From contig NZ_CP033972.1 in the NCBI RefSeq assembly GCF_003855095.1, positions 3,534,001 to 3,598,000 of the forward strand: DNA of 64,000 bases, read 5' to 3'. This document shows positions 24,356 through 27,509 of the stretch, piece after piece. The translations under genes and the position numbers were made by a program. This DNA is from Gordonia insulae. Lineage in GTDB: Bacteria; Actinomycetota; Actinomycetes; Mycobacteriales; Mycobacteriaceae. Every line of letters starts with the position of its first letter. Within the stretch, counting starts at the first letter, position 1. The notes beneath the pieces were generated by a model. It ran no database searches. It saw nothing but the letters and a program-made list of their open reading frames with translations, and was not told the origin of the DNA.

Positions 24356-24676
24356 GTGGTCGCCGGCCCGCCGCCCCCCGACAACCTGATCCTGTTGTGC
24401 TCTGCTCACCATCGCGCGCTGCATCGAGGGGAATTCGCGATCAAATCGCTTGGCGGCCAACTGTTCAGCTTCCACAGATCCGACGGGTCGACCATCGAGC
24501 AAGCCCCGGCAGGCCACAAACCCGACGGATGGGAAGCCGATACGACGATCGAGGACGACGCAGTGCTGCCGATCAGCCCCGGACGTCACCTCGACGCGGG
24601 CTACGCGACCGAGGTCCTGTACGCCGCGTGGGCGTGGAAAGCACGGCAGTCCAACGACGATCTCGCTGCCGCGTGA
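24356..24676 (+). pseudogene. 3' remnant of HNH endonuclease gene (DUF222/13E12-like C-terminus)
   Basis: The 106-codon frame starts inside what should be the HNH domain: GPPPPDNLILLCSAHHRALH is the C-terminal half of the ββα-metal site, followed by RGEFAIKSLGGQLFSFHRSD. The upstream half, with the first conserved His and the N-terminal DUF222 region of several hundred residues, is absent. An in-frame stop sits at 24326–24328, exactly the stop of the preceding gene. The nuclease is therefore dead. Its own stop (24674–24676) abuts palindrome copy B. Full relatives are abundant, often repetitive actinobacterial genes. Confidence 0.7.
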
Positions 24677-24705: not shown

Positions 24706-26955
24706 CTAGCCCCGCGCCATATCCACGAACTTGCTCAGGTGCAGTTGGTGCGCAACGGTGATCGTCGCCGTCGGACCGTTACGGTGCTTGCCCAGAATGA
24801 TGTCGGCTTCGCCGGCTCGCGGGTCGTCGCGCTCGAAAGCGTCTGGTCGGTGAAGGAGGATGACCATGTCCGCGTCCTGTTCTAGTGATCCCGACTCACG
24901 CAGATCCGACACCTGCGGCTTCTTGTCGGTCCGCTGCTCCGGACCACGGTTCAACTGACTGATCGCAACCACCGGAACCTCGAGTTCCTTTGCGAGCAAC
25001 TTCAATTGGCGGGAGAACTCGGAGACCTCCTGCTGACGTGACTCGACCTTCTTACCGGAGGTCATCAGCTGCATGTAGTCCACCACGACGAGTCTCAGGT
25101 CGTGGCGCTGCTTGAGACGCCGTGCCTTGGCCCGGATCTCCATCATGGTCAGGTTGGGTGAGTCGTCGATGAACAGCGGCGCCTCGGAGATCTCACCCAT
25201 GCGGCGGGCCAGCCGGGTCCAGTCGTCGTCGCTCATCGTGCCGCCACGCATGTCGCCGAGCTTGACCTTCGCTTCCGCCGACAGCAGGCGCATGACGATC
25301 TCGGTCTTGCTCATCTCCAGCGAGAACATGGCACTGGTCTGCTGATTGTGGATCGAGCACGACCGCAGGAAGTCCATGGCGAGCGTCGAGTTGTGGGTGG
25401 GCACCATCGCCTCACCGGCGAGGTACATGTGGTCGTCGTTGTCGACCTGCACGCACCGCACGGGCACGTTGTCGACCGGGCGCACCGCGATCAGCCGACG
25501 CACTCCCGCTCGACGACGAAGTTCCTTGTGCCGCACCGCCTTGTGATGGACGGTGAAGACATCGTCATCGGCGTCGACACGCAGCCAGCCGGTGGCCGAG
25601 CGCTTGTAGTTGTAGCCGAGTCCGGCCACCAGGTCGGCGACGACGGCGGTCATGTGCCGCGTGGCGGCCGGCACGGTGATCCAGCCGTCGTCGTCGACCG
25701 TGGCACGCGCGTCGAGCAACCCCGCGAGCAGTGCTCGACGCTGCGCGATGGACCCCCGCAGATAGTCGAAGGGGATGCGCCCACCCAGATCGGCCATCAA
25801 CGTCATCACGTCGACCGGCCCCTCGGCGTCGATCCGCATGGCGATCTCCGGGTCGTCGAACGCCATCCCGGCGAGCGCGGCGACGGTGTACGGCCCGTAG
25901 GCGAACCGCTTGCGCGGCAGATCCAGCGGCTCGGTGTTACGCACCACCGCACACCCGACGTGAGCGCGCAGACCGTCGGTGGTGACGGTCTGACGCTTCC
26001 CGTCGATGTCGGCCACCCATTGATGCTGTTCGTCCGCGACGAGAATGGTGCCGTCGTTGAATTCGACCTCGTAGCACGGCCGTTCGGTCATCACCTCGGT
26101 GGCGGCGACCACCCGCGTCGGGCGACCCCGGGCGTCGAGCAACTGATCGCCGACGGCGACCTTGCCCATCGTGGTCCAGCCGGTCGGGGTCGGCAGCGGG
26201 GTGTCGAGCGCAAGCGCCTTGCCGACACCCGGCCGCGCCGCCACGATGATCATCTGTCCGGGATGCAGGCCATTGGTGATCTTGTCCAGATCGACGAAGC
26301 CGGTCGGCACACCCAGCGAGATACCACCACGCGAGGCGATGGAGTCGATCTCGTCCATCGTCGGCTGCAGCAGTTCTTCGAGCGGCACGTAGTCCTCGGC
26401 GGTGCGGCGTTCGGTCACCTCGTAGACCTCGGCCTGCGCCCGGTCCACGACCTCGGCGACGTCCTGACCGTCGGCGCCCGCGTACCCGAACTGCACGATG
26501 CGTGTTCCGGCGGTCACCAGGCGACGCAGGATCGCCTTCTCCGCGACGATCTCAGCGTAGTAGCCCGCGTTGGCCGCGGTCGGCACCGTCGAGATCAGCG
26601 TGTGCAGATACGGTGCGCCACCCACCCGACGGAGCTCACCGGCCCGCTCGAGCTCGTTGGCGACCGTCACCGCATCGGCGGGCTCGCCCTTGCCGTACAG
26701 CTCCAGGATGGCGTCGTAGACCGCCTGATGTGCCGGCCGGTAGAAGTCGGCCGGGCGGAGTTTCTCCACCACGTCGGCGATCGCGTCCTTGGACAGCAAC
26801 ATGCCGCCCAGGACCGACTGCTCAGCAGCCATGTCCTGCGGCGGCTGCCGCCCGAAGTCCTCGGCGGGGACCCCATCGTCCCCGCGCCCTGCTCGCCCGC
26901 CGGGCACCGACTCCAGGTGGCCTGGGTCATGCCCGCGGTCATCGACAACTGCCAC
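24706..26955 (-). CDS. dnaB: Replicative DNA helicase DnaB, intein-containing
   Basis: Hexameric 5'→3' replication-fork helicase. The 749-residue precursor has an N-terminal domain (GRQPPQDMAAEQSVLGGML, about residues 37–150), a linker, and a RecA-like ATPase domain with Walker A ARPGVGK ending at residue 246. A 276-residue intein (247–522) then splits the P-loop, which resumes with STLAMDFLR. Walker B is RLVVVDYMQLM, and the C-terminal EQDADMVILLHRPD follows. Without the intein the protein is 473 residues, normal for DnaB. The start GTG 26955 (VAVVDDRGH) matches the mycobacterial MAVVDD start and has GAGAGG upstream. Position after rplI matches mycobacteria. Function requires protein splicing. 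Confidence 0.95.
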   Translation of the reverse strand: MAVVDDRGHDPGHLESVPGGRAGRGDDGVPAEDFGRQPPQDMAAEQSVLGGMLLSKDAIADVVEKLRPADFYRPAHQAVYDAILELYGKGEPADAVTVANELERAGELRRVGGAPYLHTLISTVPTAANAGYYAEIVAEKAILRRLVTAGTRIVQFGYAGADGQDVAEVVDRAQAEVYEVTERRTAEDYVPLEELLQPTMDEIDSIASRGGISLGVPTGFVDLDKITNGLHPGQMIIVAARPGVGKALALDTPLPTPTGWTTMGKVAVGDQLLDARGRPTRVVAATEVMTERPCYEVEFNDGTILVADEQHQWVADIDGKRQTVTTDGLRAHVGCAVVRNTEPLDLPRKRFAYGPYTVAALAGMAFDDPEIAMRIDAEGPVDVMTLMADLGGRIPFDYLRGSIAQRRALLAGLLDARATVDDDGWITVPAATRHMTAVVADLVAGLGYNYKRSATGWLRVDADDDVFTVHHKAVRHKELRRRAGVRRLIAVRPVDNVPVRCVQVDNDDHMYLAGEAMVPTHNSTLAMDFLRSCSIHNQQTSAMFSLEMSKTEIVMRLLSAEAKVKLGDMRGGTMSDDDWTRLARRMGEISEAPLFIDDSPNLTMMEIRAKARRLKQRHDLRLVVVDYMQLMTSGKKVESRQQEVSEFSRQLKLLAKELEVPVVAISQLNRGPEQRTDKKPQVSDLRESGSLEQDADMVILLHRPDAFERDDPRAGEADIILGKHRNGPTATITVAHQLHLSKFVDMARG
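25390..26217 (-). other. Class 3 intein inserted in the DnaB P-loop, with relic LAGLIDADG
   Basis: 276 residues between GVGK and STLAM of DnaB. The first residue is Ala (ALALDTPLPTPTGW) instead of the usual Cys/Ser. Block B has DEQHQWVAD with Trp67. Block F is VPVRCVQVDNDDHMYL with Cys255, and block G is VPTHN with Thr274 and terminal Asn276; the +1 extein residue is Ser. This W-C-T triplet with Ala1 defines class 3 inteins, where the block F Cys starts splicing. A single degenerate endonuclease motif LLAGLLDARATVDDDG (about 163–178) remains; the second motif is not visible, so homing activity is probably lost. Confidence 0.9.
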
Positions 26956-27509
26956 GCGTGTCAAACCTCTCGCAGTACTTGCACCACTCGACCTCGAGTG
27001 GGTCCGACTCTGTGTGGCGTCGGCTGCTGGCGCCGCCGACGTCGGTCGTGCTTCCGTGATAGCCACGTGCACCGACAAATCCGCCGGCGAGCTCGCGCAG
27101 TCATCTCAAGAAGCACTGTCGGAGCACATTAGGGGTCGTGTCCATCCCGCCCAAACCGGACTGTGCACAACTCTGTCAGCAAACTGTGGACGGTCTGTGG
27201 ACGCTGCGGGAAGCGTTGTGCACCCCCTGTGTACAAACTGGGGAATTGCTCTGTGAGCAAAAATCTCTTTGCAGGTCAGCGCCTTGAAAAGTTTCCACAG
27301 GCGGACGGAAAAACTGGTTCGGCGTGTCACGGTGAGAGCGCCGTTCGGCGTGTTGCGGTCAAGGGTTCAACAACGTGCGACCAACAACTGGGTAAACATT
27401 TGATGTGACCCAGGTAACAGCTGATCACAACGGTGCCCAAATGTGATTGTGGGGCGGGCGTCCAGAAATGTGCGTCGTTCGGCGCCCGTCGGCGTGTCCC
27501 TGTGATCCA
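26956..27509. promoter_or_regulatory. Gene-free 554-bp region upstream of dnaB with DnaA-box-like cluster
   Basis: There is no convincing gene here; short frames on both strands have no recognisable protein. Six sequences close to the actinobacterial DnaA box (TTGTCCACA) occur within 138 bp: TGTGCACAA (27162–27170), TGTGGACGG (27185–27193), TGTGGACGC (27196–27204), TTGTGCACC (27216–27224), TGTGTACAA (27228–27236) and GTTTCCACA (27291–27299). A TGTGA-N6-TAACA sequence at 27404–27419 resembles a CRP site. The stretch is less GC-rich than its surroundings. It probably contains promoters for dnaB and the divergent secreted protein. Confidence 0.5.

Follow-up and report, generated by a model that had tools for sequence, protein, structure and literature searches.

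The nearest solved relatives of the element described here are inteins of the mycobacterial replicative helicase DnaB, namely M. smegmatis DnaBi1 (6bs8, 6own) and M. chimaera DnaB1 (6rix, 6riy), which together with the M. leprae DnaB intein carry the class 3 triplet. Class 3 is defined by Trp B:12, Cys F:4, and Thr G:5 and by a first residue that is not a nucleophile (PMC5222942, PMC7664689; papers are cited by PubMed Central identifier, throughout from excerpts). Splicing proceeds by attack of the block F cysteine, a branched intermediate, transfer to the +1 residue, and asparagine cyclization (PMC6195587, PMC7664689, PMC5222942). We analyzed a 64,000-nucleotide stretch of Gordonia insulae DNA (the window), in which dnaB is interrupted by an intein with the same triplet. 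It shares Ala1, Cys48, and the block F cysteine with the solved mycobacterial inteins, has 60-62% identity to the mycobacterial class 3 DnaB inteins over the aligned splicing domain, and lies at the same P-loop site as those of M. smegmatis and M. leprae. However, the mycobacterial elements are mini-inteins of 139-145 amino acids (aa) without an endonuclease, whereas the Gordonia intein keeps a 164-residue endonuclease domain that is almost certainly dead and very probably maintained by selection. The features are as follows ("site b" is named after PMC6195587).

24706..26955, minus strand: dnaB, replicative helicase precursor, 749 aa from the start of the database record (P0003)
25390..26217, minus strand: class 3 intein at DnaB site b, P-loop GVGK^STLA, 276 aa (open reading frame, ORF; alignments)
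26002..26217, minus strand: N-terminal part of the splicing (HINT) domain, residues 1-72 (PDB matches, predicted structure)
25510..26001, minus strand: LAGLIDADG-type endonuclease domain, almost certainly catalytically dead, residues 73-236 (predicted structure, profile)
25390..25509, minus strand: C-terminal part of the splicing domain, residues 237-276 (alignment to solved inteins)
26074..26076, minus strand: Cys48, position of the disulfide partner in M. smegmatis DnaBi1 (alignments)
26017..26019, minus strand: Trp67 of block B, class 3 triplet (alignments)
25855..25893, minus strand: block C remnant, residues 109-121, with the Asp of LGDG in an alignment gap (alignments)
25702..25728, minus strand: block E remnant LAGLLDARA, residues 164-172, with Arg171 at the catalytic Asp position of the 404-417-aa relatives
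25453..25455, minus strand: Cys255, block F nucleophile, equivalent of M. smegmatis Cys118 (alignments)
25390..25398, minus strand: Thr274-His275-Asn276, end of block G (THN in 115/115 relatives)
25387..25389, minus strand: Ser+1 of the C-extein, the P-loop serine (ORF)

A first-pass annotation, made from the letters alone, had proposed a 276-residue class 3 intein within GVGK|STLA of DnaB. Our analysis confirms the intein at the proposed coordinates; it is encoded on the minus strand, from 26217 to 25390. The longest dnaB ORF runs from 27078 to 24706 (790 aa), and the database record begins 41 codons further in. Of the database proteins labelled with a genus, those most similar to it are from Gordonia. 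Pfam recognizes both the N- and C-terminal DnaB domains in the product, the C-terminal one split into two stretches, and in a genome search the DnaB profile is interrupted at position 33. The class assignment is borne out by the proposed signature, all of which is present (Ala1, Trp67, Cys255, Thr274, Asn276, and Ser+1), and by the nearest solved relatives, the DnaB-b inteins 6rix (E 8.7e-41; residues 1-70) and 6bs8 (E 1.8e-39; residues 1-78). Position 1 holds no Cys, Ser, or Thr, the intein ends in THN^S, and the HINT fold is present. Alignment with 6rix and 6bs8 places Trp67 and Cys255 in blocks B and F, as proposed, and Thr274 at G:5; in the alignment of solved inteins Cys255 pairs with M. 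smegmatis Cys118 and Cys48 with Cys48.

The signature is shared widely. Ala1, Cys48, His65, Trp67, and terminal THN occur in all 115 distinct DnaB-b inteins of relatives (124 loci taken, 120 parsed), found with a pattern that allowed other residues at position 1 and required HN after a small residue set. This survey omits L001-L003, of which two are the window's own dnaB and one a RadA-like locus; the four unparsed loci would be L044-L047, which show no DnaB P-loop flank. In a set of 80 named loci, whose titles are almost all actinobacterial, the GK^S site was found in 76/76 parsed inteins. An earlier parse covered 106 of 122 proteins, and these sets overlap. By analogy with the class 3 mechanism, Cys255 would attack the Lys/Ala1 junction to give a branched intermediate, the N-extein would pass to Ser+1, and Asn276 would cyclize, joining the DnaB halves; on these residues, there is little doubt that the intein would splice by this route. 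A DnaB search of the 5.96-Mb genome returned the two dnaB halves and one weak match (28.5 bits), whose ORF we take to resemble RadA, and no second dnaB. Because only one dnaB was found, the proposed dependence of helicase activity on splicing should hold. Ser+1 is also the serine of the P-loop, so the helicase should lack activity before splicing.

The endonuclease trace is more extensive than first thought. It had been described as a single LAGLLDARA motif; instead, structure prediction and profile comparison indicate a folded LAGLIDADG-type domain (residues 73-236) with both motifs recognizable, although the Pfam Hom_end model scores 12.4 bits, below its cut-off of 21.1. The view that the endonuclease has decayed was correct, as both catalytic acids are lost, and there is no second intact motif, the block C remnant lacking its acid. 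In all 50 sequences of the Gordonia/Williamsia clade the block E Asp is replaced by Arg171 and an alignment gap takes the place of the block C Asp, so neither motif has its acid. Arg also occupies the block E position in nineteen named clade loci, including G. rhizosphera, G. sputi, W. maris, and W. sterculiae, while W. soli and Williamsia sp. 1138, which fall outside the clade, have a 278-aa form with Ala there.

Two groups of relatives frame this loss. The 404-417-aa class 3 DnaB-b inteins of the same order (L103-L105, L108, L110-L124) have the same site, the same splicing domain, and a LAGLIDADG domain between blocks B and F, but keep both catalytic Asp residues, that of block E included, in 19/19 cases. 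The 269-274-aa Rhodococcus inteins (L068-L083) resemble the Gordonia intein in size and in the loss of both acids; they differ in having Gly instead of Arg at the block E position (16/16). In the order and family survey both acids are kept in 24/24 forms of 334-417 aa, in none of three mini-inteins, and in none of the 50 clade sequences; among 38 other forms of 254-325 aa, 4 keep both, 9 one, and 25 none. Lengths thus descend from 404-417 aa, with block C (LGAWLGDG-type) and block E (LLDTDG) both intact, through shorter forms with damaged motifs to mini-inteins of 141-143 aa. The nested endonuclease of the clade has lost both acids and the inserts of its longest relatives, and for these reasons homing appears to be over in this lineage; that the enzyme is dead is close to certain.

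Several individual inteins depart from these groupings. Those of L172, L203, L207, L209, L212, and L214 are DnaB-b inteins of 331-378 aa without the block E acid, and L203 (Streptomyces sp. CT34, 331 aa) has Arg at that position outside the clade. The named Mycobacterium intein L156 is 276 aa long by coincidence and keeps its block E Asp. Three inteins of 404 or 417 aa (L104, L108, L116) differ from the Gordonia intein also by a Cys-rich insert, CVVCG...CGQSC...C..C, between blocks C and E; Pfam zinc-ribbon scores for L108 and L105 are sub-threshold.

The intein is fixed in the genus. It is matched over residues 1-276 without stops in 59/59 Gordonia genomes, including that of G. insulae, with lengths by listed coordinates of 276 aa in 55 and 277 aa in 4, and it is present at 276 aa in 8/8 genomes of a second genus (g39). 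The supposition of a former homing intein, now fixed, is therefore upheld, every one of these 59 + 8 genomes carrying the intein. In a wider family sample 128/221 genomes match at E <=0.001, a count of intein matches some of which are weak enough to be other inteins; the dnaB genes of the remaining 93 lie outside the comparison. The clade forms a single group in both the splicing-domain tree (support 0.898) and the extein tree (0.862), and within it intein and host-gene distances correlate (r 0.655; 0/1000 permutations as high). Inheritance in the clade is mainly vertical, the moderate correlation leaving room for single transfers. The sister outside the clade differs between the trees, being the Rhodococcus group (0.836) for the intein and genus g31 (0.951) for the extein, which suggests earlier horizontal moves. 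We considered a recent foreign origin and saw no clear sign of it, GC content (that of third positions in parentheses) being 0.688 (0.873) in the intein, 0.678 (0.87) in the N-extein, and 0.618 in the C-extein stretch.

The principal observation concerns selection on the dead domain. Codon models (GY+F3X4 on fixed trees) were applied to 50 clade sequences, 16 of the Rhodococcus clade, and 19 of the 404-417-aa forms. For the extein, the splicing part, and the middle, omega was 0.019, 0.055, and 0.040 in the Gordonia/Williamsia clade; 0.011, 0.049, and 0.098 in Rhodococcus; and 0.026, 0.038, and 0.070 in the 404-417-aa forms. The ratio of middle to splicing part was 0.78 [0.52-1.19] in the clade, 2.06 [1.24-3.31] in Rhodococcus, and 2.15 [1.23-4.4] in the 404-417-aa forms (40 column bootstraps each). 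On 154 core columns of the middle, omega was 0.039, 0.095, and 0.059, respectively. The same ratio of Poisson protein distances, over 164 shared columns (200 bootstraps per set), was 1.02 [0.73-1.47], 2.19 [1.51-3.32], and 1.33 [1.00-1.84], and the ratio of middle to extein was 2.53, 8.46, and 2.31. The mean frequency of the commonest residue in the N-splicing, middle, and C-splicing parts was 0.836, 0.846, and 0.848 among 73 clade proteins, and 0.858, 0.612, and 0.823 in a more mixed set of 33 others; 61 middle positions are invariant among the 50 clade sequences. Read fairly, these values put the clade's dead domain under about the same constraint as its own splicing domain and as the domain of the acid-keeping relatives. 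The dead Rhodococcus domain drifts faster, at about twice the rate of its splicing part.

Some observations weaken this contrast. The shared-column intervals of the clade and the 404-417-aa forms overlap widely, and those of the clade and Rhodococcus barely separate. Tree lengths under LG+G4 give middle-to-splicing ratios of 1.39, 1.82, and 1.53 for the clade, Rhodococcus, and the 404-417-aa forms. The clade also has a somewhat faster-evolving splicing part than the other groups, both in omega (see above) and in nonsynonymous divergence (dN 0.17 versus about 0.10 at matched synonymous divergence, dS, of 0.6-1.2), and this in part explains its low ratio. In the highest dS bin (23 pairs) dS was 1.344 in the middle and 1.806 in the splicing part. 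Nor is a long dead domain unique to the clade: the generalization that all long relatives keep both acids had to be narrowed to the order and family survey, as 5/17 named loci with inteins of >=334 aa lack the block E acid. The lower omega of the dead domain would suggest even tighter constraint than on the splicing domain, but we gave up that stronger claim because the interval of the ratio includes 1 and the protein tree lengths point the opposite way.

Constraint from an overlapping gene was also considered. A 594-aa frame (25348-27132, plus strand) lies antisense to dnaB, and 34/50 clade members have a plus-strand frame that runs uninterrupted through the whole intein. We take the frame for a high-G+C artefact and rejected it as the source of constraint; the middle shows a reduced dS in the highest bin but none in the two lower ones.

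Why should a dead domain persist? The proposal that the intein was fixed by the need to splice an essential helicase accounts for the intein staying, but not for its dead domain, because DnaB inteins of 139 aa (M. smegmatis) and 145 aa (M. leprae) splice without one (PMC5222942). On balance we favor a fixed class 3 intein whose dead endonuclease is kept as a folded unit and on which the splicing domain may depend. Of the candidate reasons, the best is that the splicing domain has come to need the dead domain for folding or splicing, a mutual dependence of the HINT and homing endonuclease (HEN) domains. Such dependence would most simply explain why the length stayed locked and evolution slow once catalysis was lost, and we put the chance that it is the actual reason for retention at about even. 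The existence of DnaB-b inteins of 139-145 aa without the domain speaks against it to the extent that dependence is not a property of site b. Removal of the endonuclease is known to harm some inteins and not others (PMC8966425), and the cause of such dependence is said to be unknown (PMC8229266).

Under the homing-cycle model endonuclease domains are expected to degenerate and be lost after fixation (PMC8966425), and the domain could be a neutral leftover awaiting deletion. The loss of both acids, the range of lengths among relatives from 417 to 141 aa, the other long inteins without the block E acid, and the protein tree lengths that put the clade middle above its splicing part agree with such decay, and the Rhodococcus clade fits the pattern. 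In the Gordonia/Williamsia clade, on the contrary, length changes by <=1 aa across the 59 + 8 genomes, codon model and protein distance both put the middle at about the rate of the splicing domain, many of its positions are invariant, and the lost Asp is uniformly Arg, with no mixture. Plain decay fits Rhodococcus better than Gordonia, for which we consider it unlikely.

Somewhat less likely still is domestication, in which the dead domain would have acquired a role useful to the host, either tuning or gating DnaB splicing in response to a cellular signal or acting after excision as part of a free 30-kDa intein. A non-nuclease role of a homing-endonuclease-like domain has a precedent in the WhiA regulators. 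Constraint of the kind seen in functional domains, fixation without loss in the genus genomes, and invariant residues unlike the longer-form consensus (e.g., Arg171, Leu115, Gly146, and Trp211) would suit such a role; were it true, what began as a selfish element would now serve the host as a selected switch on the replicative helicase. Net charge points the other way, being about 0 in the middle compared with +12.6 in the 404-417-aa forms, as the basic extras are gone. Net charge proved undiscriminating as a measure of residual DNA binding, since on shared columns the difference vanishes (-0.34 in the clade and -0.47 in the 404-417-aa forms). Finally, an endonuclease still active through unusual catalytic residues or a partner protein, for which one could cite the intact predicted fold and the universality of the intein among the genus genomes examined, is very improbable given that both acids are missing in 50/50 sequences and that the clade is one group in both trees with correlated distances.

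Returning to a dead domain retained through dependence of splicing on it, we can compare the Gordonia intein with other described systems. PI-SceI and PI-PfuI, which are class 1 and endonuclease-active, have 16-18% identity to it. The archaeal VMA intein of Pyrococcus horikoshii (7qst) also has a degenerate endonuclease, and its splicing is independent of the domain (PMC8966425); excerpts of that paper report no genus-wide selection test. The intein class, the site, and the redox idea discussed below are already known. New here is the apparently selected dead endonuclease domain, unusual in this known class and site. Among the matches listed in open-licence PubMed Central, the titles and abstract starts, which covered literature on degenerate endonucleases and HINT-HEN mutual dependence, contained no genus-wide, selectively kept dead domain, and in the one intein paper there that matched Gordonia and DnaB, the genus is named once, abbreviated in a figure legend. 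A whole genus keeping a folded dead domain at about the constraint of the splicing domain runs counter to the homing-cycle expectation. Gordonia thus offers a natural, testable case for HINT-HEN mutual dependence, with the Rhodococcus clade as a decaying control.

The first-pass annotation also suggested that splicing can respond to redox stress. In M. smegmatis, H2O2 induces a Cys48-Cys118 disulfide that reversibly inhibits splicing, and zinc is bound by Cys118, Val119, and Tyr128 (PMC6195587, PMC7360933). The Gordonia equivalents by sequence are Cys48, Cys255, Val256, and Tyr265, with Phe at 265 in a few clade members, so that both disulfide cysteines are present. Although Kelley and colleagues describe Cys48 as non-conserved (PMC6195587), it occurs in all DnaB-b inteins of the three overlapping sets (106/106, 115/115, and 76/76), which questions that label and means that the redox switch could extend further than the mycobacteria. 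Across class 3 as a whole Cys48 is not universal: Cys stands at this position in 5/8 phage class 3-like inteins examined, out of 40 listed among 352 matching records. Every C48 mutant tried in M. smegmatis abolished splicing (PMC6195587), and conservation may therefore be structural; we dropped Cys48 as proof of regulation. By analogy with M. smegmatis, the Cys48-Cys255 pair probably allows a reversible oxidative block, and whether splicing would actually be controlled in this way is a toss-up.

Other observations concern the surroundings of dnaB and related inserts. ARAGORN found no tRNA or tmRNA, and Rfam gave no match at the gathering score, across the window (1-64000). A 106-aa ORF adjoining the 3' end of dnaB (24356-24676, plus strand) matches the last 23 positions of PF13391, an HNH endonuclease family (22.5 bits, cut-off 21), and may be a truncated gene. 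Five Gordonia loci (L005, L006, L017, L025, L039) have dnaB open frames of 1,053-1,244 codons, and database proteins P0008 and P0009 carry the labels PF14890, which we take to be the intein-splicing model, and PF14528. The long frames together with these labels suggest that some Gordonia dnaB genes have a second intein at another DnaB site, which the G. insulae genome lacks. Two Gordonia genomes contain an intein-like insert (L045 in G003, L046 in G025) ending in LLTHN^T, in a presumably PhoH-like gene with a GTGKTYLAMAKAV P-loop. In another genome a class 3-like intein stretch ending in VPTHN^SSLG (L044; G057:C24:62000-65500) lies in a separate 509-codon ORF on the same contig as the dnaB copy of that genome.
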